From Monoplex corrugatus (Eukaryota; Mollusca; Gastropoda; Littorinimorpha; Ranellidae), in contig CM060307.1 in the NCBI GenBank assembly GCA_030674185.1, positions 64,059,653 through 64,123,652 of the forward strand: a stretch of 64,000 nt of DNA, read 5' to 3'. The stretch's first letter is position 1, and each line of letters starts with the position of its first letter. The notes beneath the pieces are model-generated. The model searched no databases, was not told the origin of the DNA, and saw only the letters and a list, made by a program, of their open reading frames with translations. Below, piece by piece: positions 9,213-61,534 of the stretch. Position numbers and translations under genes: made by a program.

Positions 9213-10213
9213 TATTTTCAGGCCAATTCCTTAGGGCGACAGATGCATTGAGACAGAATTGATGGATCAGTACAATAGACCTGTGAAGTGACCACACCAC
9301 TGACCAGAAGCCAGTAGCAAAGGAAAATAACGCCAACTGCCAGTTGTCCATTATTCTCCACTTTGGGGAAATTGGACAGTTTCTAAGGGGTGACGCGTGG
9401 CAGTAAAAGTCACGGTCCAAATTTGACTTCTGATAACGGCATATTAAATGACCGAGGGTAACATTAGCTATAGCCACCACGCCACGATTACAAGTCCAGT
9501 CACTCCACTTTTCAAGTCAGGCTTTATGGATGTGGACAGCTAATGACAGCTGACACAGTGATGGTCAGGAAGGGAAAGCGTCCTTACCTGATTCCCCCTT
9601 CTAAAAACAAAGAGTCGAGTCACTCTATTTTTCAAGTCAGGCTTTAGGGACGCGGACAGCTATGACAACTGACACATTGATGGTCAGGGAAAGAAAGCGT
9701 CCTGACCTGAATCCCCTTTCTATTAAAGGAATAGTCAGTCAGCCCCTCGTAGTCTTGTGGGGGAATCAGCTTCCAAGGTACGTCACAGGTATGTGACCCA
9801 CGTTTCATTTCGTACTCTTGTTAGGTGTTAAGGTTAGGGTTAGAAGTTAGAAGAATGTTTTACTTTTCAGGAAACAGGAAGAATACAGTTGGACAGATGG
9901 ACATGTTCAGTATTTTAGTAACCTGTAAGATAGTGAAGATTCGTTGTGCATTTTAGGATTTAGGGCCATTGGGACTTAGGCCAGTAAGAACGGTGAATTA
10001 TGTCTTACGTTGAAGTTGATCAGTTAAATAAATGTGCTGTATTTATCATTCCATGTGTGGACTACCTTTGAGAATCCTTGTCTAGTGTGGTTAGTGCATT
10101 TTCCTGCTCATCTCTCTCCCATACTTTGTTGTGTGCGTGATTTCCAAGCAGAGAAACTATTCTTCATACACATCCCCAATTCTTTATACACATCACAAAT
10201 CCTTCCTGCGATA
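9213..10213 (+). repeat. 3' LTR of the non-coding LTR element
   Basis: This is a near-identical direct copy of 4,045-5,081, ending CCTGCGATA. Its first bases (TATTTTCAGGCCAATTCC) are altered relative to the other LTR, and a 6-base GTGTGGA segment is retained that the 5' copy has lost. The differences show that the two LTRs have diverged since insertion. Confidence 0.8.
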
Positions 10214-17804: not shown

Positions 17805-19321
17805 TCAGTTGAGTCCATAGAAAATTTGACCATCAGCCCGTTTGTAGTCTTGCCGAGTGTGGTACAGTTCAAAGCAGGTATCTGGGCACATGGGCTGGTC
17901 ACACTGCTTGCATTTGTAACTTGTCTGCACCCTCTTCCACCCCGTGCGGGTTCTTGAGCTGCAAACAATGCAGTCTGGACGACTTGAGTCAATCCTCCCA
18001 ATAAAATGTCTCTCTGTCAGTCGGCCAGGTCTGGGTGTATCTCTCTGGCCCTGGGTTTGAACCAGAGGGACATACGCTGTCAGAAGGCCATCAATGACCT
18101 TCTCCCTGAACACCCTGGGCTCAAGATGAGGTTTTGGTGTTGTCTTCTTGTAGACGATGTAGGCGTTGGTCAGGGCGACCTCCCGCAGGCGATGATACAC
18201 AGCATAATACCATTTGGAGACTTTGTGCGGGTAGGCATAGGTCCCCAACAACTGGTCAGTCAGGTCCACCCCACCCATATGCTGATTATAGTCCTCAGCA
18301 ATGACGGGTTTCTCTAGGTCACGAAACCCGCCTTCATGCTTCCCAGATTTCATCCTTCTATCTACCACATTGTCTGTGTGAACAGACGAGAGAAACAGAA
18401 CATATTTCACATCATGCCAAGCACAGGCCACAATGTCAGTGGATGCTGATTTCATGAAGATTGGATCCTCTCCTTTACGTAGTGGCATCTCCCTGCTGTT
18501 CATGCCGGGTGGCATGTTCTTCCTTCCAGGTCGTACAGTGCCACAATGGCCCAGGTTGAAGTTCTTCAGCTCACGAACCACGTTGGGGGAGGTATAAAAA
18601 GAATCTGTGTAGATGATGTGGCTGGTGTTGTGGAGGTCCTCCACCAGCTTCAACACCACACTCTCTGTGACACTGAAGTCCCTAGGACTGAAGCCATCAT
18701 ATGTGAAGGTTTCTCTCCCTGTATATATGAGGAACTTCAGGGCATAACCAGTGTCTGCCTCTGACAGGCAGAACTGTTTGATGCCAAACCTGATCGGCTT
18801 AGCGGGTAGAAATTGTTTGAAAAAGAGCCTCCCTTTGAATTTGATCATGGATTCGTCAATGCTCAAATTTTGTGTTGGGCTGTATGCTGCTGTGTACAGA
18901 GGATCAATGATGTTCAAGAGGGGTCTGACCTTGAAGAGAGGATCATATCCCTCCTCGCCTCTCTGCTTCTGGTTTGTATTGTCATTGAAATGAAGGAAGC
19001 GACTCAGCAGCTCATATCTGTTTCTTGACATTACTTGCCCAAACTGGACCTTGGTCAGCCAATAGGTGCGCCAGTAGTCCTCTAGCTCAGGCTTGTTGCA
19101 CAAGCCCATGGCAATCTGCAGGGCAAGATATGCCTTCATCTCCTCTGTAGTGGTCTCCTTGGCAGATTGAAGGCGGGAGTGGGGATCAAGATCTGTTATG
19201 CCACTCTGGAGCTGCTCAGCATATAGGTTTGACTGTGTGGCCATCAACTCAAAGACAGCATTGGGGAAGAACAGTTGAAAGTAATCAACTGGCTCAAAAT
19301 TTTCTGTATTCACCAGAACAC
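17805..19321 (-). CDS. piggyBac transposase, exon 2 (catalytic and C-terminal part)
   Basis: Cuts and pastes TTAA-flanked piggyBac DNA through a DDD active site in the nucleus. Counting from the codon at 19,313, the RNase-H-like fold shows D153 in SIDESMIKFKGR, D237 in IIYTDSFYTS and the third acidic residue in YNQHMGGVDLTDQ (D350). A C-terminal cysteine-rich domain follows (CIVC, CKQC, CPDTC), which in the family binds the transposon ends. The exon starts after an AG at 19,322-19,323, preceded by a pyrimidine-rich tract. Its phase (1) matches the GC donor at 23,524, giving a smooth join PKFNRKPG/VLVNTENFE. The catalytic exon is uninterrupted, but the N-terminal exon carries a stop and a frameshift, so the protein is probably not made intact. 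Confidence 0.88.
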
Positions 19322-19383
19322 CTGAAACAGAAAAATGTCATAATAAAGTTAGTAAAGTGAAGTAAAAAAAAAATGCATACAAG

Positions 19384-20136: not shown

Positions 20137-23100
20137 TTAATCCTTATGAAGTTCACTTTTTTCGTTCCTCCTTGCCCAGATCCAGTTTGAGCTCCTTTCT
20201 GCTGCCTCTGCCATCGCTTTAAGGGCTCTAGTCCTCTTCTTCCCAGAAATGGCGAGTTGTTTCATGAGATCATAAGCGGAGGTGCCCACAAACCCTCTTG
20301 CCCCGACCTCAATGGCGAAGATTTTGACCCGCAGACCTGCTTTCTTCAGGGTGCTGGCAAGACCGGCGTATTTTTCGGTCTTGTAGATATGTGCTTCTTC
20401 CATTCTGCTTTCGTATGGCACAGTGAGTTCTATCAGAATCACTTGTTTCGAGGAGTCAGAGTGGAGAGCGATGTCTGGTCTCATGCCTGTCTTGCTGATG
20501 ACATCTGGGTAATTTCTCCACTCTGGGAGGTCTGCTGTACACTCCCAGTCGACTGCTCCATCCAGAAGACCCTTTGGCAATGTGCTGGTTGTCATAGCAC
20601 TTTCGGGCCAGACCTGTTTCCCTCCTGCTTTGTAGAACGTTGACATAGCAATTGGTGCGTTTGGGGTCATGGTTTTTTCGCTAACCACATCTGTGATCAC
20701 TTTCAGAACTTGGTTGTGCCTCCATGTATACCTTCCTTGGGCTAGCGCTACTTTGCAAGAGCTTAGGACATGTTCCACTGTTTGTTTCTTCTGACAGAGC
20801 GGACATGCTGGGTCGTCTGCTTTCCCCCATTTCACTAAGTTTGCATTCGAGGGGAGCAGGTCATATACAGATCTGAGGAGGAAGCTTATCCTTAGAGGAG
20901 CCATGTGCCACATATCGTTCCAGCTGAGACTTCTTTGGAGTGCACTGTCCCATGTTGTCCATTGCCCCTGTTGACCTTGCTGGACTGCCTTCTGCACTCT
21001 TTTGACATCTTCTTCTTCCTTCAACTCCTGTATGGTCATGTCTCTTTTTTCCTTCCCTTTGGCTTTGGACCACCACTGCATTTTTGTTGCTCCCAGTCCC
21101 TGTCTGTTGGTTTGCGTGTGTCCAATTATTTCTTTGATGCTGAGGTTTCTCTTGGCATTGTTTACAGCCTCTTGGACTTTCCACTTTCTGCCAGTTCTCA
21201 GCTTTGGATGAACTGATCTCACGATATTGTCTTCCGATTCCTCCAGCATGCTCAACAGTCTTGCTTTTCCAACTTTGTATTCCTCCACTATGGATTTGAG
21301 AGGTAGCTTCAGCATTGCTTGACGACAGTAGAATGCAACATCAGTGAGACCAGGTGGGACACCGAGCCATTTTCTTGTGTATTTGTTGATTTTGGCTTCC
21401 ATTGCTTCGACTGTGCTGGTGCAAATGTCATAGATTAGCAGTGGCCACAGCAGCTTTGGTATCAGCATGAACTGTAGACACCAGACTTTGTATTTGCCTG
21501 GCAGTCCGCAGTTATCTATTTTCTTCAGGCCTTCTTCTGCTGTTTGCTTGGTTTCACATCCCCTTTGTGTGTCTTTCAGGGAGTCATCATACCATCTTCC
21601 GAGACTTTTTACTGGCTCTTCTGTGACAGTGGGGATGGCTTGGTTGGCTACCATGAATTTGACTGAATCTGCCACTTTTCCTTTTCGCAGTGAGAGACTT
21701 CGGGATTTCTTAGGTTTGAACCTCATTCTTGAAGAGGCCACCAGCTCATCCAGCTGCTTTAAGATTTGGTGTGTATCTTCCTCACCCGTGGACAAGACTG
21801 TTGTGTCATCCATGAAAGCTTTCAGAGGAGGCATCTGGTATCCATCTCCCAGATTCACTGGACCTGAACTCTTCATTGCAGCTTTCAAGATGACTTCCAT
21901 TGCCAACACGAACAGTATGGGAGAGATTGCACAGCCCATTGCAATGCCCACCTCTAGGTCTATCCAGTCCGTGGTGTATTCTTTGGTAGAGAACCGCATT
22001 GAGAACCCTTGGAAATACTTCCTCAGCATTGTTCGGATGTTTTCTGGGATGTGATACATTTCAAGAGCCAGCTGGATCATATCGTGTGGAACTGATCCAT
22101 ATGCATTCGCCAGATCAAGCCAAACTACGTCAATGTCTCTCTTCTCTGTTCTTGCTTTTTGGATGGCATCCCAAATCAACGTGGCATGTTCCAAGCATCC
22201 AGGCATTCCTGGTATGCCTCCCTTTTGGACTGACATATCCAGATACTTGTTTTCAGTCAGGTATTTTGTCAATCTTGCTGCCATAACAGAGAAGAAGATT
22301 TTCCCCTCGACGTTCAGAAGTGATATTGGCCTGAACTGATTGATGCTGCTGGAGTTCTGCTCCTTCGGAATGTACACTCCTTCAGCTCTCATCCATTGGT
22401 CGCTGATCTTCTGGTTCCTCCATGCTGATCGAATCATCTTGTGGAGCCACTCGAGCACTTTTGGGCATTTCTTGTAGAGCAGGTATGGTATTCCGTTTGG
22501 TCCAGGTGCTGACTTGGCTCTGGCTTTCTTTACTACGTTCTTCACTTCATCCAGTGTTGGTGGTTTGTTATTGAATTTTCCTTCTGGCGCTGCAGGCCAA
22601 ACCAGATTCTGGATTTCAAGTGGTGCCTCGCGCTGAGAATCGGAATATGTTTCCCTGAGATGCTGCTCTAGGGTTTCCTTGCCCACTGTGAGAGTCCCTG
22701 ATTTGGGTTGTTCAAACAGCTTTCTTGAAAAGTCAAAGGGATCTTTGAAGAAACGATCTTGAGTCTTCTTCTTTTTGCTCTTTCTTCGCCTTGCTGATTC
22801 CACTTTGCTGAGAGCATTGTGTTTGGCCTTCAGATCTTTCCAGAGTTCCAGGAGCCCTTGCTTCTCGAATTCTGAGGCAGTTTTCATTCGCTTTTTAAGC
22901 TTCCTTTTCTCCCTCCGGATGCTCTCCATCTGTTGCTGTCTTCTGGATTTCTGGGGAGGCGTTTTTGTCTTTGGCTGCTTCACTCCATAAGTGTCCCTGC
23001 AGATAGAGTATATGATGTCTCCGTATGTGTCAAGTTTGTGTTCCAGCGTACTGTTCCCTATTAGCGCATTCAGCTTAAGGACAAGTTCCTCATCTAATTT

Positions 23101-23385
23101 CTCCCATTGTTCTTTTGCACCGGCAGGCGGCAAATTGAGTTTTCCACGTTTGGCGTTAAGAGCTTGTGCAAAATCCGCATCAGAACCGTCAGCGTGGATG
23201 TCCTTGGCACTATGGTTTAATTCCTGGCCTTGGTCATCCAACGTCTCACCTGCTATCGCAGTGCGCTGCTGCTGGTTCGTATGTGTCTTCAAACAGCCCA
23301 TTTTTGTCCTGTGGATCTTCATGCCGCGTTTGGTGGTGAATCTCCTTCCACACGCACACGGAAATTCCAACTGGTCATTAATCAT
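20137..23385 (-). CDS. Reverse transcriptase/restriction-like endonuclease of an R2-type retroelement
   Basis: A single uninterrupted 1,082-codon frame encodes the whole retrotransposition protein. In order: an N-terminal zinc knuckle (C10, C12, H25, C31) for target recognition; basic and coiled segments (about 145-210); reverse transcriptase with SAPGPNGIP (about 292-300), the palm aspartate in VWLDLANAYG (D424) and FMDD (524-527); a CCHC motif (C861, C864, H872, C877); and a PD-(D/E)xK-like endonuclease with RPD (969-971) and IELTVPYE (985-992). This order (zinc finger, RT, CCHC, endonuclease) is that of the R2/NeSL/Hero group. Those elements nick DNA and prime cDNA synthesis at the target. 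The closest clade cannot be settled by eye. The intact frame contrasts with the broken frames around it and suggests a recent insertion. Confidence 0.88.
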   Translation of the reverse strand: MINDQLEFPCACGRRFTTKRGMKIHRTKMGCLKTHTNQQQRTAIAGETLDDQGQELNHSAKDIHADGSDADFAQALNAKRGKLNLPPAGAKEQWEKLDEELVLKLNALIGNSTLEHKLDTYGDIIYSICRDTYGVKQPKTKTPPQKSRRQQQMESIRREKRKLKKRMKTASEFEKQGLLELWKDLKAKHNALSKVESARRRKSKKKKTQDRFFKDPFDFSRKLFEQPKSGTLTVGKETLEQHLRETYSDSQREAPLEIQNLVWPAAPEGKFNNKPPTLDEVKNVVKKARAKSAPGPNGIPYLLYKKCPKVLEWLHKMIRSAWRNQKISDQWMRAEGVYIPKEQNSSSINQFRPISLLNVEGKIFFSVMAARLTKYLTENKYLDMSVQKGGIPGMPGCLEHATLIWDAIQKARTEKRDIDVVWLDLANAYGSVPHDMIQLALEMYHIPENIRTMLRKYFQGFSMRFSTKEYTTDWIDLEVGIAMGCAISPILFVLAMEVILKAAMKSSGPVNLGDGYQMPPLKAFMDDTTVLSTGEEDTHQILKQLDELVASSRMRFKPKKSRSLSLRKGKVADSVKFMVANQAIPTVTEEPVKSLGRWYDDSLKDTQRGCETKQTAEEGLKKIDNCGLPGKYKVWCLQFMLIPKLLWPLLIYDICTSTVEAMEAKINKYTRKWLGVPPGLTDVAFYCRQAMLKLPLKSIVEEYKVGKARLLSMLEESEDNIVRSVHPKLRTGRKWKVQEAVNNAKRNLSIKEIIGHTQTNRQGLGATKMQWWSKAKGKEKRDMTIQELKEEEDVKRVQKAVQQGQQGQWTTWDSALQRSLSWNDMWHMAPLRISFLLRSVYDLLPSNANLVKWGKADDPACPLCQKKQTVEHVLSSCKVALAQGRYTWRHNQVLKVITDVVSEKTMTPNAPIAMSTFYKAGGKQVWPESAMTTSTLPKGLLDGAVDWECTADLPEWRNYPDVISKTGMRPDIALHSDSSKQVILIELTVPYESRMEEAHIYKTEKYAGLASTLKKAGLRVKIFAIEVGARGFVGTSAYDLMKQLAISGKKRTRALKAMAEAAERSSNWIWARRNEKSELHKD

Positions 23386-23524
23386 GGTCCGTTGTGCGTT
23401 TCCAGTCGTGATGGAGTCAGTGCCGATGGATTCATCATTCTCTCCCCCTTTCGGTGAATCCTGGGAGCATCTTTCATATATATATGTAAGCTGAAATCAA
23501 ATGTAAACAAACTCAACCACTTGC

Positions 23525-24961: not shown

Positions 24962-25663
24962 CTATCGTCGGCGATTTCGGCCTTTGGCAGTCTTATGAAC
25001 GTGAAAGTCGCGAATGAGTTCCGCTGGAATATGTGACTCTGGTTCCCACGTTGTGGCTCTGTAACCCTGCCACTTGATTCTGTAGTGGCGGACTTTGTTA
25101 ATGACCTTGCTAGCAAGGATCTTTTCTACAAAGTACATGTTTTTGTCTGACTGATTCTCACGTTGTTCCTCAGAAGTGGAGGGGCTAGCAGCAGCATGTT
25201 CTGTTTGACTGAGATGGTCTGGCTGAGGCTGTGAAACAGTGGTAGGCTCTGTACCAGTAGTAGTCTGTCCCGGCTGAGTGGACCCAGTGTTGTCCGTGTC
25301 CCCTGTCTGCACTGGCGCCTGCAGTGGGTTAGTGGGTCTGTCTTCAGGGGAATGATAGGGTCTCAAGCGCATCGCACTGATTGGCGATTTGAGCAGCTTG
25401 TTGTTCTGGCAATGACGGAGCACATATACATTGTTAGGCAGGATTTTGGTAATGTAATATGGTCCGTCGTATTTTTGCTGCAGTTTTTCAGAGATCCCTG
25501 GCGATCCTGTGTGAGCACTGCACCAGAACGCGTTGATCTTCTTTATACTGAGGGGGACGGGATTTCCCATCATACTGGGTTTTATAGCGCTGCTGGGCTC
25601 TGAATGTTTTCGCTGACCAGTTTTTTTGTAAGCTCTGCATTCTGGATGATATCTTCCATACAT
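24962..25663 (-). pseudogene. Gypsy integrase C-terminus with chromodomain
   Basis: The frame holds the GPY/F-like part of integrase (KYDGPYYITKI), a proline/threonine/glutamine-rich linker, and a C-terminal chromodomain (RHYRIKWQGY, TTWEPESHI). In chromoviruses this domain steers integration to marked chromatin. It ends with a basic tail and a stop at 24,962. The frame is displaced relative to the integrase core upstream, so it is part of a broken pol. Confidence 0.85.
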
Positions 25664-26818
25664 GGCTGTGCAGAGGCTGGAAGATCATCAGAGCGTAAAG
25701 CCGTATCAATGGGAAGTCTATACTGTTGTTTGAACAGAACAAAGAAGGGAGAAAACAGTGTAGACTCAGTGGAGGGCACTGTACGAAGTGCGGCAGCAAT
25801 CCCAGGCAGCAGAGGCGGCCAGTTGTGAGGGTTTTCAGCACAGTGTGCCCTGAGAGACTGAGCGATAGTGGAATTTGTTCGCTCACATGTGGCATTTGTT
25901 TGGGGATGGTAGCTGCTGGTGTGCAAACGAGTGATCTGAAAGATTTTGCACACTTCAGTTTTGTCCCCTGTCTGACAGTAAGTGGTCAGGAGCACCATAA
26001 CGACAGATGATGGTCTCGTATAAATGCCAGGCAATGGTAGAGGCTGTTGCATCCTTCAGTGGAATCAGTTCCACCCACTTACTGAATGAACAAACAAACA
26101 AGAGAATGTACTTGTAGCCTTCTTTGCCTTGTGAAAGTGGACCCAAGATGTCACAATGCCAACTGGAAAACAGCTTGTTTGGGGCTACAGGCAAGGGGGT
26201 TAACTGCGGGTTTTGAGGATGGATAACCCGTTTTGCTTTTTGACAGGCCTCACACGACTTAACGTACTCCAAGATGTCGGAGTACATACCGATCCAGAAA
26301 TACCTCAACCTGACTGACTGGTAGGTACGTTCAGTGGCAAAGTGACCGCCCAACAGAGAATCATGAAACGACAGCAGGGTATCGTTTCTCAGTTCAAAAG
26401 GAACCACTAACTGTCTGACTATTCGTTCAGTTCTATGACCATGACCACGAGGATAATACAGATGGTACAAAATGCCATTAGACATCAGATAGTCTTGACT
26501 CTCCAGGATAAGACGACGAGCAATCTTATCATCCTGGGAAAGCTGACCGTTTTCCAAGTAGTCAATAAAAGGACGACACTGGGGGTCAGCCAGCTGCATT
26601 TGTCGTAAGTCTGTGTCATCGACCTTGTCTACCTGACAGACAACCATCTCTTTCTCAATCACCCTATTACTCCATCCAGGCGATGTGCTGGTGGGCGTGG
26701 TGGCGGGGAGAGGTGATGTGGGGTCAACGATGGTAGGTGAATGAGTCAGTGTGCTTACGACTGGTTCCCCGGTCAGGGGTGGGGTGGTAGGGAGAGACTG
26801 ACCCGCCGGTGAAGTCAC
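25582..26818 (-). pseudogene. Gypsy integrase, zinc-binding and catalytic core
   Basis: The frame 26,818-25,955 carries the HHCC zinc finger (HDSLLGGHFA, CEACQKAK) and two acidic residues of the DDE core (WHCDILGP; SDRG). A second frame (26,052-25,582) continues with YHPQTNATCERTN, which contains the third acidic residue. A frameshift near 26,000 separates the two, so the protein is not continuous. Role in the family: strand transfer of the cDNA into the host chromosome. Confidence 0.85.
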
Positions 26819-27669
26819 CTGTGGTGCTGCCTGCCCTTCAAGGTCGGTGTGGGCGGGTCGTAGTCAGGCGGTGGCCTGTCACTGACAGCGTGAGGCATAC
26901 GGCTGAGTGCATCAGCGTTATTGTGCACCCTGCCTGGTTTGTGCACAATGTCATAGTCATAACCCTGTAGAAAAAGAGCCCAACGTCCCAAACGACCCGT
27001 GGGATCTTTAACATTCTGCAAGAATTTTGTGGCAGAATGGTCGGTGTACACCAGAAATTTGGGATGGGAGAGATATACCTTGAAGTGACGAATATCATCT
27101 ACGAGAGCCAGGGTCTCTTTTTCCGTAATTCCGTAACGGAGTTCTGCACCTCGTAATGCGCGACCGCCATAGGCAATGACTCGTTCTCTGCCATGTTCAT
27201 CTCTCTGGCCGAGCACATAGCCAATGGCTTGTTTGCTTGCGTCAGTGTACAGAATGAACTGACGAGAGAAATCCGGGTAGGCCAGAATTGGAGTAGTGGT
27301 GAGGGCAGTTTTCAGCGTCTGAAAAGCTTGTTCTGCTTTGTCGTTCCATTCAAATTTTGAATCATTTTTCAAAAGAGCATTGGGTGGGGCAGCTATGGCT
27401 GAGAAGTTCTTGACAAAGCGCCTGTAGTAATTTGCTAGACCCAAAAATGAACGAACATCATGCTGCGACTGGGGAGTGGGGAAATTTTTGACAAGTTCCA
27501 CTTTGGCTGGATCCACAGAAACACCCTCTTTTGAGACAATATGGCCTAGATAGTTGACTTTGGCAGCTGCGAAATGACATTTGCTAGGCTTCAGTTTGAG
27601 ACCTGCTTTCCTGATCCTATCAAAGATACATGATAGATGAGACAGGTGTTCCTCAAAGTTCGTTGACAA
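26815..27669 (-). pseudogene. Gypsy reverse transcriptase C-terminal part and RNase H
   Basis: Contains the thumb/connection segment (LKPSKCHFAAAKVNYLGH, FLGLANYYRRF) and a Ty3-type RNase H (LYTDASKQAIG, ITEKETLAL, VYTDH). The catalytic FIDD box of the reverse transcriptase lies just upstream, at about 27,690, in another frame. A frameshift separates this part from the palm domain at 27,715-28,527. Confidence 0.85.
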
Positions 27670-27714
27670 ACAAAGGATGTCATCAATGAATACCAGACAG
27701 ATTTTGAAAGTAAG

Positions 27715-28527
27715 TCATGCAAGGACTGTGTTCATTAATGATTGGAAAGATCCTGGGGCACCTTGTAATCCAAAGGCCATTCTGTTCCAAGCAAACGATC
27801 CAAAATGTGTGGTAAAGGTCGATTTTTCTTGTGACTGAGCGTCAAGAGGAATTTGCCAGAATCCAGAGAACAAGTCTAGAGTGGAAAATATTGTGGACTG
27901 ACCCATGATGTCAAGAGCGTCCTCCAGTCTGGGCAGTGGAAAATGTATTGTCTTTGTGACTTTGTTCAGTTTACGGTAGTCCACAGCAAAGCGATACGTA
28001 CCGTCCTTTTTCACCAATACAACTGGGGAGGACCATGGTGAAGTGGAGGGCCTGATAACACCATGGTGAAGCATTTCATTCACTTGTCTCTCTATCTCAG
28101 CAATGAGGGCGGGGGCTGTACGATATGGTCTTTGTTTGACAGGCGCAGCATCCCCTGTATCGATGGTATGAGACATAAGATGGGTTTCCCCTAGTTCGGA
28201 CATGTCGGCAGCAAATATGTCTCTGTTTTGTGCCAGAAATAGGGTCAAGTGTTCCTTTTGCTCAGCAGTAAGATCAGCATCTACCAAATTAATCCCTAAC
28301 TCATTAAGCATGGCTTGTGCCTGGGGAAGTTGTTGAGAAGTTGAGTCGGTGGTGGCGGACATGATCTGAGCTGATTGGTCGGACAGTTCCCCTAGTTCTT
28401 CTGAAATGTCTTCAAAATGCCCTAAAATATCCTGAGGTCGAAGTTTAACTGGGGAGGAAAATGTATTACGCACGGTACACATAGTCTGGCTATTCTGCAG
28501 TGTAACCAAGATCCTTGCAGCAATCAC
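27715..28527 (-). pseudogene. Gypsy reverse transcriptase N-terminal part
   Basis: Shows an approach segment (HTIDTGDAAPVKQRPYR), the VNEMLHHGVIRPSTSPWSSP block, VDYRKLNK, and the first palm aspartate in STLDLFSGFWQIPL. GLQGAPGSFQ follows. All are standard Ty3/gypsy landmarks. The frame ends at about 27,715 before the FIDD box, through a frameshift. Confidence 0.85.
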
Positions 28528-28548
28528 TTTCTTGTCCGACAGTAGCGC

Positions 28549-29700
28549 TTATGAGGGCTCAATAATACCAGTGGTGTGATCACTTTTTGACACAACTCGC
28601 ACAGGTAGCAATACCTCAGAGTGGGGGGCAATAACTGTCGTCTTGAGCACCTGTACAGGTGAGCTGTCTGGCCTATATTTGAGCAGTGGAATGGCAGTAA
28701 ATCCATTATACAGCTGCAGCTGGTGCTTAGCAAAGTTCAAGGAAGCTTGATGAGAGGTCAGAAAATCAATCCCTAATATGAGGGGACACGTTAGTTGTTC
28801 GATCACAATGAAAAGTTGTGATACCTGTAAACCTGAAACTTTAAAGGAAAGATCAATTTTGCCTGTCACTCTAACAGGGACACCACCAATACCTTTGATC
28901 AAAGGAAGAGAACACGCCTGCATAGAAACAACACGTTGATCAACGAGGACATCAGCTAGTTGTTTGCTAATGCAGGACACATCAGCACCCGTGTCTATCA
29001 GAGCTACATATGGCCGATTTTTAAGGAACAGCCTGATCTTACTGCAGTTGGCAAAGGAACGGATGTGAGGGATGGAGGGGAATTTCTGTGACTTTGGTCG
29101 GTTTCCTTTCCTTGTCCTGTCAATCTTACGAGATGTAAAAGTACGGGGAATCCCCTGTTTAGCACGACGGAAACAATGATGTGCTAAGTGTCCATCTTTA
29201 TGGCAGTACTGACATCGTGCATGACGAAACCTACATGTGTTGCGGGGATGATCAACCCCACATGATTTACACAGGAAGTAACGATCTGGAGGATATGAAC
29301 TTGACCGTTGTTGCTTGTTATTCGTCCGTAACAGCCGCCGCCTGAAGAGCGAGCCATGTTTGCTCGGTTTTCCTGCAGGTGGGCGGTGCCACCTTTGCGT
29401 ACCTGAAGAACAGTACTGTGACTGAAGTTGGCGGCGGGGCTGTGTCTGTCTGCGTGACATACTAGAAATTTCATCTTGCAGTTTATCCAGCTGAGTCTCC
29501 AGGGTGGCAACATTTATCTCTACCCGGTCATCAACATTATCAGTAAAGGTAGCCGCGGTACGGGCGAGGTCGAACGCATCTTCAAAGGTGTGAGGGCTGC
29601 GTGACATAACAAATTTAGATAACGAGGGTCGGAGACCACTGACAATCGTTTCCATTATATCTTTTGAGTCTTTACCTAGTTGTTGGCCCTGGTAGCGCAT
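28549..29700 (-). pseudogene. Gypsy gag C-terminus, zinc knuckles and protease
   Basis: A capsid-like segment is followed by basic DNA and a zinc-knuckle region (CKSCGVDHPRNTC, CQYCHKDGHLAHHC). An aspartic protease follows with ALIDTGADVSCIS as the active site and LILGIDFL as the second family motif. The stop at 28,549 overlaps the start of the pol frame, so a programmed frameshift between protease and reverse transcriptase is possible in the ancestor. Confidence 0.82.
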
Positions 29701-30122
29701 AGAATCAAAATATTCTTCGACTGACTCATGGGGGAGTTGCTTTCTCTCCCGAAACTGCTTGGCACGAATCCATATTGTGGAGTCATGAGGCCTGTACCTC
29801 TTCGAAAGAGTATATTAGTGATGGAATGGTAAGAAGAAATCTGCTCTGAACTTGAACTATAGAACCAGATTTGGGCTTGATCCTTAAGGAAAAGAGATAG
29901 GAGATGGGCTTTCTGATCATCTGTCAACCCATGGACAAGGGTGTAAGACTCGAACGTTTTGAGCCATAGATCGATATCTTGAGAAGGTTGGCCTGTGAAT
30001 GGTTCAGGAATAAACTGATCAGGAATGTGGACGGTTGTGGCCTTAAACATATGTGGCCCTAGGACAAAATTGCTGTCTGTATCCATCATTGAACCCTTGT
30101 GACTGAATGAACAGATATGCAA
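29676..30122 (-). pseudogene. Gypsy gag N-terminal part
   Basis: Starts near 30,122 and contains PEPFTGQPSQDIDLWLKTFE and a DQKAHLLSLFLKDQAQIWF segment, typical of Ty3/gypsy capsid (retrotransposon gag family). It shifts frame near 29,700 relative to the rest of gag. The capsid packages the element's RNA. Confidence 0.78.
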
Positions 30123-30289
30123 CCCTCAAGGTCTGTGACTATCTTTTGTCACTAGGTACGCGCGTAAGACAGCAACCAGTGGAAAAACAAATAGAACGAG
30201 AATTCGTCATCAAACTGCACAATATCGAAGAAAGAATGAGACTAGTAGCATCATAGCCAATAATAGAACATCCTTGCCCAGCAACCATC

Positions 30290-32346: not shown

Positions 32347-33482
32347 TATCGCAGGAAGAAAGTGGTTTGGGTCCACCATGCATCGCAAGGGGGATACGTT
32401 TGAGAATTGGGGGTGAGAATGAAACATTGGGGATGATTAAGAAGAGTTGGGGGTGAGCATGAAAAATTGTTTCTCTACTTTGAAGTATCGCAAGGAGGAT
32501 TTGGTCTTGCCATCTATCAGGGAAAGAATTTAGTCTCTTTTTATCATAGGAGAATTTAGGGTCACTCTGTCTCCAACATCGCATACAACCAGAAAGGAGA
32601 GTGACGAGAAGAAATGCACAAATACGCTGGACATGATTCTCAAAGCAGTCCACACATAGATTGATAACTACAAAGCCTTTATTCAATTAAGCAAAAACGT
32701 AATTCACCATTCGTGCATGCCATGATTCCTAATAGTCCTAAAACCCTAAGATGCACTACGAATCTTCACTAACTTACTTATCACTGAAATACTGAGCACT
32801 TCCATAGTTCCTACTCTATTCCCTCTCTCTCTCTGCTTCATGGAAAAGAAAACATACTACCTACTTCTATCCCTACCCTAACAAAAGTATAAGATGAAAC
32901 GTAGTTACATACCTTTAAGATAGGTTGGAGACTTCTCTCGTTCACTGACTCACTGTCATACTGGGTGCCGACTCAGTGCTGACTCTCCCACTAGTGTGTC
33001 CTAACGACTGACTGCTAGCCTATATACAGTACGATTCCCAATTACCGATCTTTGTCTCTGCTACAAACATTCCCAGCTGCCCTCTAGCTGTCGATATCAA
33101 TAAAACTGGGCATTTCAAATTTGGGGAACTTGGCGATCCTGGCATAGCTGCCTTGGTCGTCATTCAACCTACCTATAAATTTTCTTGGACATTGATGGCG
33201 ATATTGACATAGCGGCCATGGTCGTCATTCAACAGTCCCGTAATTTGCTTGGGCATTGGTATTTGCTGAGAAATGTTGATATTCTGGGTTATCTACCCTT
33301 TGTGCCCATTAAAGGTGGATAAGAACCATGTGAGAGTTAGATCCCGTTTGAATGGAAATTGCTGAGTGACAAATTGAATTATGGATGGCGTGATCTCCAG
33401 TGCGCCCACCTCATTAACTCGTCTACCAAGTCAGTCGAAGGAATGTTTCTTCCCCCTAGAGGTGGGGGGGCCCCCTGTGATA
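32347..33482 (-). repeat. 5' LTR of the gypsy element
   Basis: Near-identical to 13,181-14,488 apart from one copy instead of two of a ~165-bp segment, and a shorter CT run (about 32,821-32,834). It contains AATAAA at about 32,680. AGGAC follows its outer end at 33,482-33,486. Confidence 0.82.
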
Positions 33483-38817: not shown

Positions 38818-38932
38818 CTGTATCAGTCAAGAACATGGCCGACAAACCCTTCTTCCAGAAAGAAGCATGGTCGCTTCGACTGAAGTCCTTTGTTGCAGCA
38901 AGGACTACAGGGGTAATCGGGAACACTTCGAT
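38818..38932 (-). CDS. M28 peptidase exon 6
   Basis: Acceptor CTTTCAG/ATC and donor ACAG/GTACTC bound 115 bp. The phase-0 frame reads IEVFPITPVVLAATKDF and then SRSDHASFWKKGLSAMFLTDT, ending phase 1. The SDH..FW signature is a strongly conserved part of the M28 catalytic region near the substrate pocket. It follows exon 5 in phase 0. Confidence 0.85.
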
Positions 38933-42292: not shown

Positions 42293-42436
42293 CTCGAAAT
42301 CAGGATGTCCTTGCTGGAACCACGACTTGTTGAAAGAGGTCATGATACTCGCGTCGTCAGGAGACCGTCCTGCCACAGTCAGGAAGTCCCCTTCCTTCTG
42401 GTCAGAGTTTATGCTGGCTGATATTTCAGGAAACAG
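42293..42436 (-). CDS. M28 peptidase exon 5
   Basis: Acceptor TTTTTCAAG/CTG and donor TTCGAG/GTGACA bound 144 bp (48 codons), both phase 0. The product reads LFPEISASINSDQKEGDF, then TVAGRSPDDASIMTSFNKSWF and ends GHPDFE. This corresponds to the variable lid region between the active-site ANMD segment and the SDH motif. The upstream pyrimidine tract is short but adequate. Confidence 0.82.
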
Positions 42437-42682: not shown

Positions 42683-43266
42683 CAAAGGTGAGAGAGACAA
42701 AGGTGAGAGAGACAGAGACGACACAACAGCAGTAAGGTCCTCTAACGCGGCATACATATATACATGCAAACATACATACAAACATATAGACACACACACA
42801 CACATACATACATACATACACATACATACACACATACAGCATACATACATACACACATACATAAAACATACATACATACACACACAACATACATGCATAC
42901 ATACATACAGATACATACATACATACATACAGATACATACATACACACACATACACAGATACATACATACACACAGATACCTACATACATACATACACAC
43001 ACATACATACATACACATATAAAGAAACATACATACATACACACATACATGTAAAGAAACATAAATACATACACACAACATACATACACATACATAAAAC
43101 ATACACACATACATGTAAACAAACATACATATATACATACATACATACATACATACATACATACACACACATACATACATACATACATACACACACACAT
43201 GCATACATACATACATACACACATACACACATACATACAGACAGACATACATACATACATACATAT
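42446..43266. repeat. (CA)n, (GT)n, (GA)n and (ACAT)n microsatellites
   Basis: Successive tracts: CACACG (42,446-42,520), GAGT/GT (42,527-42,592), (GA)n (42,620-42,680), GACAAAGGTGAGA units, and about 500 bp of (ACAT)n with ACAC variants (42,756-43,266). The many tyrosine-methionine-cysteine frames are artefacts. The block runs up to the left end of the first Tc1 element. Confidence 0.92.
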
Positions 43267-44884
43267 ACTACACGTCATTATTGAAGGGCCAGGAACGTTT
43301 TTGAGTCAATTTTTGAAAGGAGAAATAACCTATTTTCTCTTACTCTTTTCTCCAATTCGTTGCCGTAACTGAATGGATAAGAGCTCAGACAACATTGCAG
43401 TTTCCTTTTGGCACGTGTTTGGGGATTTGCCGATTTGCAATGGGCGGCCCAAGGAAGACAATTTCCACACGAAATTGTCGAATCTTCAGCAGGGTCTCTC
43501 TGACGACGCAGGCAAGGTAGCGACAAAATTCGCTTTGCACGTGCAAGGCAAGCCCTTTTTGAACACTACTCCAGCCAAAGTTGCCCGCAGACGAGGATAA
43601 AAAGGACCCGTTCTTGGTTCGTTTTAACCATGCTTGCAAGACGACGGATGACGGATGAGCAGCGGGGGAGAGCCCTCGCTCTGCTTGATGAAGGCCTAGC
43701 GCAGCGGGAAGTTGCTAGACGACTTGAAGTGTCGCATTCCACAATCCAGAGACTGCTGGAGCGCTTCAATGAGACTGGAGCAGTCCAGGAAAGGCGTCAC
43801 ACGGGTCGACCCAGAGTAACGACAAGACAGCAAGACCGCTACCTTGCCCTCTCCGTCCTGAGGGAAAGGGCATCCACTGCGGTGACCTTGAGGGGTCAGC
43901 TGAGGGACGTAACAGGTGCTAACATCAGCTGCAGCACGGTGAGAAGACGGCTACATGAGGCAAACTTGAGGTCACGGAGACCGGCCGTCCGACCCGTGCT
44001 GTCACCGGTCAACAGAGTGCGCCGCATGACCTGGGCCAGGGAGCACGTGACCTGGACAAGGCAACAGTGGGCCCGGGTCTTGTTTTCGGATGAGTCCAGG
44101 TTCACCCTGACCTTTAACGATGGCCGGGCTCGGGTGTGGCGACGTCAAGGGGAGAGGTTCGCTGACGCCACTGTCCAAGAGCATAACCGGTACGGCGGCG
44201 GGTCGGTGATGGTGTGGGGTGGCATGAGCCGTGGTACCCGGACCCCCCTGCTCCCCATTGACGGCATCCTGAACGGGGTCCGGTACCGGGACGAGGTTCT
44301 GGCGGCCGTGGCACTGCCTGCGCTTGTGGACCTTGGTCAAGGCGCCATCTTCCAGGAAGACAATGCTCCTGCGCATCGAGCACGCCTTGTGACCGACTTC
44401 CTGGAGCAGCATGAAGTCGTCCGTATGGCCTGGCCAGCGTGCTCACCTGACCTGAACCCAATTGAACACCTCTGGGATGTGCTCGGGAGGCGCATCAGGG
44501 ACAACCACCCCCCACCGGGCACCCTGGCCAGGCTGGTCGACATCCTGCAGATCGAGTGGGCGGCCATCCCTCAGGACACACTCCGTACCCTTGTGGGGTC
44601 GATGCATCGGCGCTGTGAAGCATGCATCCAGGCTCGGGGCGGACACACGCGATATTGAAAACAGATTGGCCAAATCTGACACTTTCTGTTTTTTGAAAAG
44701 GGGGGGATGTTCCTTTAAATGCATGTGCTGTTCACTAATGGGTCATTGTGCTAATTTCTTTTTCCAAAACAGGTGTGGAAATGATGAAATAAAACATAGA
44801 ATCAATTCTAAACATTGTCAATTATTTCAACTTAAAATTAGAGAGGAAGGAAGAAGTGGCCCTTAAATTATGATTAGGAGTATA
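43264..44884 (+). mobile_element. Tc1/mariner transposon, copy 1
   Basis: The 1,621-bp unit runs from TATACTACACGTCATTATTG to its imperfect inverse, and the 3' end reads on minus TATACTCCTAATCATAATTT. Both ends carry AAGGGCCA about 20 bases in. A TA duplication is consistent with the TATA at each end. It contains an intact transposase. It lies in the intron between peptidase exons 4 and 5, about 100 bp beyond exon 4. Confidence 0.88.
43630..44658 (+). CDS. Tc1/mariner transposase, copy 1
   Basis: A complete 342-codon frame encodes the cut-and-paste enzyme. The N-terminal helix-turn-helix region (about 8-45: TDEQRGRALALLDEG, REVARRLEVS) and a second one (to about 115) bind the inverted ends; GRPR between them is the family's linker. 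The catalytic triad is D154 (LFSDES), D244 (FQEDNAPAH) and E279 (SPDLNPIEHLW), 34 residues apart, so DD34E as in Tc1. Length is normal for the family. The coding region is clearly richer in G and C than its AT-rich surroundings, which fits recent arrival. Confidence 0.93.
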   Translation: MLARRRMTDEQRGRALALLDEGLAQREVARRLEVSHSTIQRLLERFNETGAVQERRHTGRPRVTTRQQDRYLALSVLRERASTAVTLRGQLRDVTGANISCSTVRRRLHEANLRSRRPAVRPVLSPVNRVRRMTWAREHVTWTRQQWARVLFSDESRFTLTFNDGRARVWRRQGERFADATVQEHNRYGGGSVMVWGGMSRGTRTPLLPIDGILNGVRYRDEVLAAVALPALVDLGQGAIFQEDNAPAHRARLVTDFLEQHEVVRMAWPACSPDLNPIEHLWDVLGRRIRDNHPPPGTLARLVDILQIEWAAIPQDTLRTLVGSMHRRCEACIQARGGHTRY

Positions 44885-44957
44885 CATACATACATACATA
44901 CATACATACATACATACATACATACATACATACATACATACATACATACATACATAC
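44883..44957. repeat. (CATA)n microsatellite
   Basis: About 18 tandem CATA units lie between the right end of the first Tc1 element and the donor side of peptidase exon 4. Confidence 0.92.
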
Positions 44958-44988
44958 GTTTTAAAACAGCGGACATTGACAATCTTAC

Positions 44989-45167
44989 AAGATCAATGCC
45001 CTTCGGAAATGCTTGGGTATTGTTACGGTCATCGAAGTTCAGGACAGTGTCCATGTTGGCCAGACCTTTCCACTGGACAGGCCAGGACTGGAAATACGAG
45101 GGCAGCCAGTCGTTCACCAGCTTTGTGCTCCCGCACAGCGGTTCGTTAAATGTGCAGGCTGCGTCCG
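44989..45167 (-). CDS. M28 peptidase exon 4
   Basis: Acceptor TTATACAG/CGG (or GCAG/CCTG at 45,158) and donor GATCTT/GTAAGA bound up to 179 bp, phase 1 in and 0 out. The frame contains CGSTKLVNDWL and KGLANMDTVLNF. The aspartate in ANMD corresponds to the conserved D/E zinc ligand following the FEEYE segment in M28 enzymes. It is flanked on the intron side by (CATA)n and a Tc1 element. Confidence 0.85.
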
Positions 45168-46785
45168 CTGTATAATGGATCAGGCAATAAATGGTGAGAA
45201 TGTCTTTTACTAAAAAAAAAAAAAAAGTGCTAAGAAGAAAGAAAATGAGCGGTACCTTTCTTTGTTCCTTCGATGCAACATCCCATCTTAAAACGACTAA
45301 ATTCCATCTGTTGGGAAAATCCGAAATGCCCGTTGCTAGGCAACCAGAGACGGTATCTTGCTTGGCCACCCCACAACAACATCATCAGGTCTTCTACGTC
45401 ACAGAAAGGTATGGAATGGCAGAGCGTCTCCTCGATATTACGTTATTCATGGCGTTACCCTCTCTGTTTTGTGGCAAGATGCGCTGTCATGTAATATCAA
45501 TGGCGATTCATTTAGCAGCGTTTTTCGTTTCTTTCGAATTGCAGGTCTTAGTATTTTCATCAGAAACATCCTCTAACAGTCTTGATTTAATAGTTTGTCC
45601 TATTGGAACGCGAAGCACCGTCGATATACCTTGTTGTCATGGGTAAATATCTTTAAATTTCTTTGCTTTCTTCTGAACCTGATGGGACTTGAATAGATGG
45701 GAGTGTGCCAGTCACTCTGACGATTTTGTCTTTAATTCTGGCCCATAGCTTCTAAATCCAAAACAAGTGTCACTGCCCGTGTTCAAGCAAACAAAAACCA
45801 GAAAAAAAACAACCCCGGAGCAGCAGGGGAGTTTCAGTCTTTTTCTCCTAATTTTTGTATCTGGTGTTTGTTTGTGATCTTACGCTTGACAAAGCCCAGC
45901 TGGCCGACAATTTGCGCCTGTCTTGTCTTGTATCAAATACGCGTTCTTAGTCTTTTTGCGTGTTTTTTTTTTTTTCTGGTTCCATAGCTTCTAATTCACG
46001 TTTTGTCAATGGCAACTATCCGGTAGAAAAAAAATGTTACCCTCATTTTTGTATTTGTTAAACACAGTCTCTGCAATAATGACGTACGTCCAGTTTTTTC
46101 CTTCTTATTGTTTATCTTCAGTAAAACAGCAGGTGACCCAGCTCGCTGCAATATGTCTCATTCCAAATTTACGTGTTAGAATCACGTGGAGTAATACACA
46201 AACTGATCTTCACACGTTAGTTGCCTGTCTCCATTAACAAATTTTATAACTTTTTGACTATTATTTTTCTTTTGTCCTCAGGAGCTGCCAATGGCCTCCC
46301 TGAACTATACTGGTTTCTGACGTCATGTCGTCCATCTTTAAAGAATGACACCCACGTATAAGCTGCAGTCTACAAAAAAGTCTTGTGTTGTAGTGTTTTT
46401 AATTCATCTCTTTCAGAACTTCCTTTAAGAAATTTGATTTAAATATATGTGCTGTTCTTCAATGCTAAACGTAGCCATGCCGTGCGGTACTGACTGTACC
46501 TAACGTGACGTCATAATAAATGACATCAGAATGTTTGCACATAATTTCGTAATTAGATCACGGAATGATTGGGCGAGATGTGTGTAAAGTATCACAGCGC
46601 TGCGGATCATTACTTTCTTTAAAGCTATCAGGCCTCGCGAGCATATTCATCATTGATGATGATGACGCCGATGAAAAGGCTGATAACAACAGCAACCATC
46701 CACTCAACCACCGCATGCCAATCATCAACCAACCTCCACCAACATACCAACCATCTACTACTGAATCCATCACTGACATCGGCTG
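45168..46785. other. Intron 3 of the peptidase gene, no further gene seen
   Basis: AT-rich DNA with short A- and T-runs. No transposon landmark or splice-bounded coding frame was recognised. Confidence 0.5.
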
Positions 46786-46789
46786 CTGA

Positions 46790-47100
46790 CAGACAGACAG
46801 ACAGACAGACACACACACACACAAACAGACACACACACACACATATATACACACACACATATGCACACACATACATACACACACACACACACACACATAT
46901 ATATATGTATATATTTATATATATATACATATATATGTATACACACACATATACACATATACATACACACACATACACACACACACATACACACACACAT
47001 AATTATATATACACACACACACACATGCACACACACACATACACACACACACATACACACACACACACATACACACACACACACACACACATACACATCC
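46790..47100. repeat. (CA)n/(TA)n microsatellite
   Basis: About 300 bp of CA tracts with TATATG interruptions and a TATATAT core (46,897-46,945), ending only about 40 bp from the donor of peptidase exon 3. Confidence 0.92.
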
Positions 47101-47139
47101 ATCACTACCCTTTTTCACCCCTACCACCTATACACTTAC

Positions 47140-47271
47140 TATTATTTTCATTTTCATATTCTTCAAAATCGAAAGCAATAAAGAGGAGAGTGGAGTTACG
47201 AGGCTTTCCTTGTGACAGTTCTCTCGCCGCTTCCAGCATTACCACCACTGCCGCCCCATTGTCGTTTACTC
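47140..47271 (-). CDS. M28 peptidase exon 3
   Basis: Acceptor GTTGTTTCAG/GA and donor AATA/GTAAGT bound 132 bp, phase 1 at both ends. The frame VNDNGAAVVVMLEAAREL carries the bridging aspartate of the di-zinc site, and LLFIAFDFEEYE carries the catalytic glutamate and its neighbouring ligand. Joined to exon 2 it gives the continuous SAHYD...GVNDNGAA signature of the family. Confidence 0.9.
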
Positions 47272-47344
47272 CTGAAACAACCATCAATGCCAGAACATAC
47301 AATGAAAACAGCGCGTGAATGTATGCCAACAGACTAAATATCAG

Positions 47345-47565
47345 CAAACGAGAGAGAGACAGAGAGGGGGGAGAGAGGGGGAAGAGAGAGAGGGGGAAAG
47401 AGAGAGAAGGAGAGGGAGAGAGAGAGACAGAGATAGAGACAGACAGACAGACAGAAGGAGAGAGAGATTCGCAACACATCAATTACTGAAGAGACATAAG
47501 ACAAAGGGACAGACAGAGACAGAGACAAATAGACAGAGACAGAGACAGAGACAGAAAGAATACCG
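47345..47565. repeat. (GA)n/(GACA)n microsatellite
   Basis: Purine-rich GA, GGGGA and GACA units, interrupted near 47,470-47,505. Confidence 0.85.
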
Positions 47566-47898
47566 ACTTGAAATAGTTTATTCACGACACAGACTGAAAC
47601 CCCTTATGAAGGGAAATGTAAATGTACACAGTGCATTTTCAGTACTGTTGAACTTAATACATTTACAGGTCAAGTACTATCCTCGCCTGATACAAATTAG
47701 CACTTGACGTTAACGTTGCATGCAATACTAGTGTTCGTTAAGGAGTGTTTGTTCAGCACTTCACCCTGCTCAGTTTAAACACGTAGGGTTGTTGATAATA
47801 TTTAGGCTGTATGTACCAATTTCTTACACACACGAAAAAGCTTTACAGCTCAGAACAAAATGAATTTCGTCTTCTTTGGAATTTTCGCATAATGAACA

Positions 47899-49519
47899 TA
47901 TACTCCTAATCATAATTTAAGGGCCACTTCTTCCTTCCTCTCTAATTTTAATTTGAAATAATTGACAATGTTTAGAATTGATTCTATGTTTTATTTCATC
48001 ATTTCCACACCTGTTTTGGAAAAAGAAATTAGCACAATGACCCATTAGTGAACAGCACATGCATTTAAAGGAACATCCCCCCCTTTTCAAAAAACAGAAA
48101 GTGTCAGATTTGGCCAATCTGTTTTCAATATCGCGTGTGTCCGCCCCGAGCCTGGATGCATGCTTCACAGCGCCGATGCATCGACCCCACAAGGGTACGG
48201 AGTGTGTCCTGAGGGATGGCCGCCCACTCGATCTGCAGGATGTCGACCAGCCTGGCCAGGGTGCCCGGTGGGGGGTGGTTGTCCCTGATGCGCCTCCCGA
48301 GCACATCCCAGAGGTGTTCAATTGGGTTCAGGTCAGGTGAGCACGCTGGCCAGGCCATACGGACGACTTCATGCTGCTCCAGGAAGTCGGTCACAAGGCG
48401 TGCTCCATGCGCAGGTGCATTGTCGTCCTGGAAGATGGCGCCTTGACCAAGGTCCACAAGCGCAGGCAGTGCCACGGCCGCCAGAACCTCGTCCCGGTAC
48501 CGGACCCCGTTCAGGATGCCGTCAATGGGGAGCAGGGGGGTCCGGGTACCACGGCTCATGCCACCCCACACCATCACCGACCCGCCGCCGTACCGGTTAT
48601 GCTCTTGGACAGTGGCGTCAGCGAACCTCTCCCCTTGACGTCGCCACACCCGAGCCCGGCCATCGTTAAAGGTCAGGGTGAACCTGGACTCATCCGAAAA
48701 CAAGACCCGGGCCCACTGTTGCCTTGTCCAGGTCACGTGCTCCCTGGCCCAGGTCATGCGGCGCACTCTGTTGACCGGTGACAGCACGGGTCGGACGGCC
48801 GGTCTCCGTGACCTCAAGTTTGCCTCATGTAGCCGTCTTCTCACCGTGCTGCAGCTGATGTTAGCACCTGTTGCGTCCCTCAGCTGACCCCTCAAGGTCA
48901 CCGCAGTGGATGCCCTTTCCCTCAGGACGGAGAGGGCAAGGTAGCGGTCTTGCTGTCTTGTCGTTACTCTGGGTCGACCCGTGTGACGCCTTTCCTGGAC
49001 TGCTCCAGTCTCATTGAAGCGCTCCAGCAGTCTCTGGATTGTGGAATGCGACACTTCAAGTCGTCTAGCAACTTCCCGCTGCGCTAGGCCTTCATCAAGC
49101 AGAGTGAGGGCTCTCCCCCGCTGCTCATCCGTCATCCGTCGTCTTGCAAGCATGGTTAAAACGAACCAAGAACGGGTCCTTTTTATCCTCGTCTGCGGGC
49201 AACTTTGGCTGGAGTAGTGTTCAAAAAGGGCTTGCCTTGCACGTGCAAAGCGAATTTTGTCGCTACCTTGCCTGCGTCGTCAGAGAGACCCTGCTGAAGA
49301 TTCGACAATTTCGTGTGGAAATTGTCTTCCTTGTGCCGCCCATTGCAAATCGGCAAATCCCCAAACACGTGCCAAAAGGAAACTGCAATGTTGTCTGAGC
49401 TCTTATCCATTCAGTTACGGCAACGAATTGGAGAAAAGAGTAAGAGAAAATAGGTTATTTCTCCTTTCAAAAATTGACTCAAAAACGTTCCTGGCCCTTC
49501 AATAATGACGTGTAGTATA
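47899..49519 (-). mobile_element. Tc1/mariner transposon, copy 2
   Basis: It has the same 1,621-bp length and the same end sequences as 43,264-44,884, in reverse orientation, with very few base differences by eye. It lies in the large intron between exons 2 and 3, about 630 bp upstream of exon 3. Confidence 0.88.
48125..49153 (-). CDS. Tc1/mariner transposase, copy 2
   Basis: A complete 342-codon frame differs from copy 1 at only five residues (A17T, V94A, E243D, R250G and none other noticed, so four clear changes). D154, D244 and E279 of the DD34E triad are all kept. The near-identity and the two intact frames indicate recent transposition or a recent duplication. The two copies point towards each other across peptidase exons 3 and 4. 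Confidence 0.93.
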   Translation of the reverse strand: MLARRRMTDEQRGRALTLLDEGLAQREVARRLEVSHSTIQRLLERFNETGAVQERRHTGRPRVTTRQQDRYLALSVLRERASTAVTLRGQLRDATGANISCSTVRRRLHEANLRSRRPAVRPVLSPVNRVRRMTWAREHVTWTRQQWARVLFSDESRFTLTFNDGRARVWRRQGERFADATVQEHNRYGGGSVMVWGGMSRGTRTPLLPIDGILNGVRYRDEVLAAVALPALVDLGQGAIFQDDNAPAHGARLVTDFLEQHEVVRMAWPACSPDLNPIEHLWDVLGRRIRDNHPPPGTLARLVDILQIEWAAIPQDTLRTLVGSMHRRCEACIQARGGHTRY

Positions 49520-49767
49520 TATATTAATTTATAAAGAGAGAAAGACAGAGATAAAGAGAAGTGAGAGAGAATGAGAGAGACAAAAAATAAAGAATTGGAT
49601 GGTTTAATGTCTTTCAAAGCATTGAAACAAAACAAGTCAGGGCACTCAGTTCAAAAGAACAACTACACTGAAAATAACACACTTCAGTTACAGACACGTT
49701 AACCACAACATGACTAGTTACACCATAAGTCGAACAGTCATCATGCTCTGTACTAAGCTGAGAGAGA

Positions 49768-59810: not shown

Positions 59811-59919
59811 CAGGAGTGTATCTCATTGTGTCGTAGTGAGCACTGATAGCAACGATGCTGTCATTGGTCGTATTGAAGTGAATTCCTTCCAATACGCCGA
59901 TCACGTTCACACCCATCAC
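59811..59919 (-). CDS. M28 peptidase exon 2
   Basis: Acceptor GGGGCTTTCAG/GTG and donor CCTG/GTAGGT bound 109 bp, phase 0 in and 1 out. The frame VMGVNVIGVLEGIHF continues to SIVAISAHYDTMRYTP. The His and Asp of SAHYD are the first zinc ligands of the M28 family. Only about 65 bp separate the donor side from the inverted LINE segment and (GT)n tract. Confidence 0.88.
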
Positions 59920-61334: not shown

Positions 61335-61534
61335 ATTTTGCGCCTTTGTGTCGAAGTTATGACTGACTGTGGTCAGTCCAATGTTGCGAAACTGGCCAGC
61401 AATGAAGTTCCGAGCCATAATCTTGTACTGGGAATTGGTCACATGATGTCGGGGCTCAGAAAAGTGTGATGTCAGCGTGTCTTTCATCCACTGGGGACGC
61501 GGTTCTCCTCTCACGTGCAGTGCGGCTTGGAAGC
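61335..61534 (-). CDS. M28 peptidase exon 1 of the visible model
   Basis: Acceptor TATTTGTGCAG/GC and donor CAAAAT/GTAGGA bound 200 bp, phase 1 in and 0 out. The 66 full codons begin FQAALHVRGEPRPQW and continue through HFSEPRHHVTNSQYKIMA to FDTKAQN. This is the N-terminal segment that precedes the SAHYD motif in M28 peptidases, where the chain is positioned after removal of a prepeptide (EPRH region, tyrosine-lysine helix). The phase-1 acceptor means at least one more exon lies upstream. It was not recognised in the remaining 2.5 kb and may be outside the window. Confidence 0.8.

Follow-up and report, generated by a model that had tools for sequence, protein, structure and literature searches.

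Two inverted Tc1-like insertions around exons 3 and 4 of an M28 peptidase gene in Monoplex corrugatus, in all likelihood an unremarkable product of a recent transposon burst

Introduction

Within a gene for an M28 peptidase in the marine gastropod Monoplex corrugatus, two near-identical transposons of the Tc1/mariner type lie in opposite orientations in the introns on either side of exons 3 and 4. The locus is contained in a stretch of 64,000 nucleotides (GenBank assembly GCA_030674185.1, contig CM060307.1, positions 64,059,653 to 64,123,652, forward strand), which is referred to here as the window and numbered from its first letter. An initial annotation of the window pointed to this long inverted repeat and to what it might do: fold the pre-messenger RNA into a duplex, invert the two exons, or carry them along as a composite unit. 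The question raised by the locus is whether such a pair, so alike and so close together, calls for a special event or a special role.

The pair consists of two insertions with intact reading frames, belonging to a family whose copy number, clustering and target bias can be read directly from the assembly. In all likelihood it arose as an unremarkable consequence of a recent burst that produced thousands of copies, the near-identity being due to the burst and the closeness to clustered insertion. The account as a whole, which combines independent insertions from a young family, clustered targeting and RNA pairing as a side effect, is one in which we have high confidence.

Results and Discussion

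The inverted pair and its family

The two copies, at 43264-44884 on the plus strand (copy A) and at 47899-49519 on the minus strand (copy B), are each 1,621 nt long and align with seven substitutions and no indels (99.57% identity), a match far above chance at the sequence level. A search for inverted repeats that did not depend on this alignment found arms at 43251-44891 and 47892-49532 (1,641 nt, 99% complementary) separated by a spacer of 3,000 nt. Comparison with the ends at other loci shows that the element proper is 1,617 bp long, beginning with TACT and ending with AGTA, and that the length of 1,621 nt includes one TA on each side. The two equal-length inverted copies described at the outset are thus borne out, and refined to a 1,617-bp element with TA duplications. 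Copy A is inserted within a (CATA)n tract, and the flanks outside the two copies are unrelated to each other.

On the basis of their sequence, both copies are assigned to the Tc1-like DD34E transposons of the Tc1/mariner superfamily. The transposase of copy A displays the catalytic residues D154, D244 and E279, with 34 residues between the last two, and the amino-acid differences of copy B leave all three untouched. Across 120 relatives the corresponding columns hold D in 119/120, D in 120/120 and E in 119/120 sequences. A domain search identified HTH_Tnp_Tc3_2 (PF01498, 6.9e-19) and DDE_3 (PF13358, 5.4e-16), and the closest relative of solved structure is Sleeping Beauty (5cr4, 3e-35). A TA precedes the element in 51/52 of the 5′ flanks, and all 22 printed 3′ flanks start with TA. 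The snail element shares with Tc1-like transposons and Sleeping Beauty this pair of domains, the DD34E residues, the TA duplication and the use of AT-repeat targets, but it forms a family of its own, with terminal inverted repeats that begin with TACT and are present but short and imperfect (20/26 identical). Among the best 120 of 1,454 database hits, the closest transposase carries no name (89% identical) and the first named host is Littorina saxatilis (60%); the named hosts are L. saxatilis, Batillaria attramentaria and one animal that we take, from the name Cordylochernes, to be a pseudoscorpion.

Near-identity is general in the family

The similarity of A and B had been taken, by implication, to set this pair apart. 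This is not borne out, as the A-B divergence is average for the whole family. In the assembly searched (3.018 Gb, 7,621 contigs), a 40-nt pattern of the 5′ end, with at most 3 mismatches, gave 1,374 + 1,398 = 2,772 matches, and its reversed control gave 0 and 0. We aligned 53 copies, of which two were dropped for low coverage (L018, L028) and 51 kept. The median pairwise difference among the 51 is 8/1,540 sites; A and B differ at 6/1,540, and 28% of all pairs differ at six sites or fewer. N was counted as a difference, and two loci rich in N (L027 and L036, with 747 and 1,380 N) inflate the mean, so that medians were used instead. The 342-residue frame is intact in 26/53 sampled copies. Young age and open frames are seen in the family, and present-day transposition is putative.

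The seven sites that separate A from B give a finer picture of their relationship. Copy A has a single difference from a copy on contig C1, compared with seven from copy B. Among six compared copies, B stands alone at element positions 186, 415, 1114 and 1568, the 1095A of copy A is common only to the C1 copy, and positions 647 and 1104 vary among the others. When the 51 copies are considered, which cover six of these sites, B departs from the majority state at three and A at the other three. This pattern of sharing, with the C1 copy nearer to A, indicates that A and B descend from separate members of a family that is still very young. Three of the differences are clustered at element positions 1095-1114, a feature suggestive of conversion; this candidate was rejected, for among the copies compared 1095A is found in the C1 copy, 1104 varies and 1114 is private to B, and no special event is needed to account for them.

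Clustering and target sites

The closeness of the two copies also has counterparts elsewhere in the genome. Intervals were measured between 100 exact-match copies, all listed from one part of C1. Eleven of the 99 intervals are shorter than 5 kb, against 0.33 expected and a maximum of 4 in 2,000 simulations. Thirteen are shorter than 10 kb, eight between copies of the same orientation and five between inverted copies, of which four face outward as A and B do. The head-to-tail pairs L042, L043 and L048 have gaps of 6, 18 and 6 bp containing (TA)n, an arrangement that looks as though a new copy had gone in next to the TATA end of one already present. The outward arrangements comprise a full-length pair with a loop of 1.44 kb (L046), a pair about 6.4 kb apart in which one copy has a small insertion (L050/L052), and two pairs on C1 in which one member is cut short (L041, L045); L047 is an inverted pair of the opposite sense. 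Another same-orientation pair lies on C11, where one member is without its first 197 positions. Scaling 4/99 intervals to the 2,772 matches gives about 112 (31-287) outward neighbours closer than 10 kb genome-wide, and about 56 (7-202) outward pairs with two near full-length copies, since only 2 of the 4 qualify; both estimates take the part of C1 from which copies were listed to be representative.

The members of L041 and L045 nearly touch, with 13 bp between them in L041, and form almost spacer-free palindromes.

The flanks reveal a marked target bias. In 52 5′ flanks, A is found at position -3 in 81% and at position -5 in 81%, compared with 36% and 33% at the 3,819 TA sites that make up the background of the window. 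A simple repeat lies at most 60 nt away in 13/52 flanks (7/28 among L011-L040), as against 5.2% of the TA sites in the window. A preference of ZB, Sleeping Beauty and Bari for ATATATAT is reported (PMC7913693).

In the explanation that we favour, two independent cut-and-paste insertions from one very young, high-copy Tc1 (DD34E) family would have entered introns 2 and 4 in opposite orientation. Their twin look would reflect the fact that the sampled copies of the family are still about 99.5% alike in general, and their closeness would result from clustered insertion at TA steps, in repeats of the (TA)n/(CATA)n type and beside the element's own TATA ends. Near pairs in general are no closer than other pairs (mean 7.3 differences, n=13). 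Some points weigh against this explanation. Two of the 13 near pairs have only 3 differences, and in one such pair (L043) both copies carry an identical early stop; the chance of two or more such pairs is 0.11, and local duplication does occur in the family. The 100 listed copies come from one part of one contig and are all exact matches, the flank sample is enriched for clusters, and a single assembly cannot yield the insertion-by-insertion history of A and B.

A predicted RNA duplex around exons 3 and 4

The proposal that inverted repeats in the introns flanking exons 3 and 4 could form a long duplex is supported by the minimum-energy fold. In a 6,341-nt stretch of the pre-messenger RNA, the two copies are paired in register over 1,614 bp. 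The duplex alone has an energy of -3,555 kcal/mol, versus -1,164 kcal/mol for the two arms folded apart (-596 and -568 kcal/mol for the individual arms). A 1.6-kb RNA duplex is thus predicted to be strongly favoured, in terms of energy only, as kinetics, splicing order and proteins lie outside the calculation. The geometry is that of circle-promoting repeats, with the complementary arms lying in the two introns that border a set of complete exons. Copy A is located 106 bp past the donor of exon 4, and copy B precedes the acceptor of exon 3 by 629 bp. Upon transcription, pairing of the copies would bring this donor and this acceptor together. By analogy with inverted Alu elements, an exon 3-4 circle and adenosine-to-inosine (A-to-I) editing are plausible, and in the favoured explanation some of both would be likely side effects without a selected role.

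The snail pair resembles human inverted Alu pairs in that near-complementary repeats occupy both introns flanking complete exons. It differs in being a DNA transposon and not a short interspersed nuclear element, and in its length (1.6 kb, compared with about 0.3 kb for Alu). A literature search found no paper joining circular RNA, molluscs and reverse-complementary flanking introns in that combination. Inverted Alus across flanking introns are reported to favour back-splicing (PMC11263572). If the snail pair acted in the same way and mattered for the gene, back-splicing, editing or skipping would lower the amount of functional peptidase messenger RNA. The short distances to the splice sites, which are canonical, and the 1,614 in-register pairs fit such a role, and exons 3 and 4 together measure 311 nt, so that skipping both would shift the frame. 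By contrast, each arm may fold on itself first, intron 2 is long (about 12.5 kb), and the family forms many such pairs; these features indicate no special role, and we consider it unlikely that the pair matters for the gene in this manner.

What is left after the burst and the clustering is a plausible RNA-level side effect common to many other pairs in the genome. Taken singly, the pair is what a transposon burst would ordinarily leave behind, and the value lies in the large natural set: the family is young, its copies number in the thousands and many of them form close pairs, which amounts to a replicated natural experiment. Such a set could show how long perfect inverted repeats determine back-splicing and A-to-I editing according to their spacing, their orientation and their place in the intron, outside mammals and in a clade in which long double-stranded RNA is reported not to feed a small interfering RNA (siRNA) pathway (PMC12479628).

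Other origins and roles considered

Short-range transposition, in which one copy arose from the other, would also place two copies side by side. Local hopping is described for Tc1/mariner elements (PMC2874221), reinsertion of ZB into the same intron in opposite orientation is reported (PMC7913693), and the strong clustering of copies in the snail genome would agree with it. However, copy A is nearer to the C1 copy than to B and the A-B divergence is average for the family. A local duplication of A into B, or of B into A, is disfavoured on these grounds, and local hopping appears improbable as the source of the pair.

A role beyond the host gene can also be envisaged. In maize, the geometry proposed for Mu killer (PMC3440606) is an inverted pair of transposase copies read through from a flanking gene, and A and B place sense and antisense full-length transposase in one transcription unit. 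The likeness to Mu killer lies in inverted transposase copies within a transcribed region; the snail pair differs in that its two full-length elements were inserted separately and enclose 3 kb of host exons, and in belonging to an animal from a clade reported to be without endogenous siRNAs (endo-siRNAs). The mollusc survey concerned (PMC12479628) reports that a dedicated pathway for endo-siRNAs is absent and lists RNA editing among the possible fates of double-stranded RNA; this tells against a Mu killer-like role and lends editing weak support. In a broader version of this analogy, near-perfect inverted pairs of Tc1 would number roughly in the tens to hundreds in the genome, and some would span exons; those transcribed would be natural sources of double-stranded RNA leading to exon circles, edited RNA or silencing of the family in trans of the Piwi-interacting RNA type, with the M28 pair as the animal counterpart of Mu killer. 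We regard this version as highly doubtful. That the pair is a hairpin source silencing the Tc1 family in trans is very improbable, considering that the family has amplified to 2,772 5′-end matches and has kept its transposase frame in about half of the sampled copies.

Palindromes generated by read folding or misjoining are a known type of assembly error, but an artefact of this kind is exceedingly improbable here, given the unrelated flanks, the seven differences, the TA at each end, the occurrence of the family at thousands of places and a host gene that is collinear through the region.

The M28 host gene

On the minus strand, a tblastn search with seven M28 relatives located six exons in collinear order, near 61.5, 59.9, 47.2, 45.1, 42.4 and 38.9 kb (Table 1). 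Exons 3 and 4 have AG/GT borders and matching phases. Their position between the two Tc1 copies and the boundaries 47,271 and 44,989, as initially annotated, proved right in the light of tblastn and the splice sites. The M28 core is recognized by PF04389 on exon 3 (8.7e-07) and by the similarity of exons 2-4 to the aminopeptidase 6hc6 (3.2e-09). The first exon found is preceded by an acceptor, with no ATG ahead of the conserved part; one more 5′ coding exon is therefore likely, and the exon numbers used here may have to be raised by one for the full gene.

Identities to relatives were computed over 141 residues (7 hits of 44 candidates). Exons 2-4 are 72% identical to the M28 protein of Babylonia areolata (P0121) and 67% identical to that of Nucella lapillus (P0122), and the likeness to these genes extends to six exon-sized matches in order. 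The next named relatives are from Littorina and Batillaria, and we take the named relatives to be caenogastropods. A genome search with P0121 (9/9 candidates scored) gave six places, all in the window and all open, and no further place at E 0.001 or better. The snail gene differs from P0121 in its C-terminal part (about residues 304-377 of P0121), which was not found in the window, in the 10 kb below it or in the genome search; a very long last intron, a lost exon or an assembly gap could account for this.

Neither rearrangement suggested for the bracketed exons was seen. Among the best 40 of 7,727 candidates, none was a further full-length occurrence of the 3,014 bp between the copies, a result short of proof because the method elsewhere missed copy B, and exons 3 and 4 occur at one place only in the protein search of the genome. 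Movement of the exons as a composite unit is thus not supported by the searches made. Exons 1-6 are collinear on one strand, and the assembled haplotype is therefore not inverted.

Within intron 3, some 170 bases at 45816-45992 of the window match many other places in the genome at 85-94% and probably belong to a short repeat family.

Table 1. Coordinates of the Tc1 copies and M28 exons in the window
Feature	Position	Strand	Remarks
Tc1 copy A	43266..44882	+	1,617 bp; antisense to M28 gene; intron 4
TA target duplication, 5′ side of copy A	43264..43265		inside (CATA)n tract
TA target duplication, 3′ side of copy A	44883..44884		
Transposase open reading frame, copy A	43630..44658	+	342 residues; DD34E (D154, D244, E279)
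Tc1 copy B	47901..49517	-	1,617 bp; sense to M28 gene; intron 2
TA target duplication, 5′ side of copy B	49518..49519		
TA target duplication, 3′ side of copy B	47899..47900		
Transposase open reading frame, copy B	48125..49153	-	342 residues; 4 unlike copy A
Bracketed segment (loop)	44885..47898		exons 4 and 3, intron 3
M28 exon 1 (of those found)	61335..61534	-	borders read by eye
M28 exon 2	59811..59919	-	
M28 exon 3	47140..47271	-	132 nt; VNDNGA ... FDFEEYE
M28 exon 4	44989..45167	-	179 nt
M28 exon 5	42293..42436	-	borders read by eye
M28 exon 6	38818..38932	-	borders read by eye

Other features of the window

Two sets of near-identical direct repeats were also found in the window, at 13181-14287 and 32347-33447 (98.5% over 1,107 aligned bases) and at 4053-5009 and 9225-10188 (98.1% over 964 aligned bases). 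Three long open frames on the minus strand resemble, as judged by eye only, a piggyBac transposase (17805-19337), the reverse transcriptase of a long interspersed nuclear element (20137-23496) and a Gypsy-type polyprotein (24962-30125).

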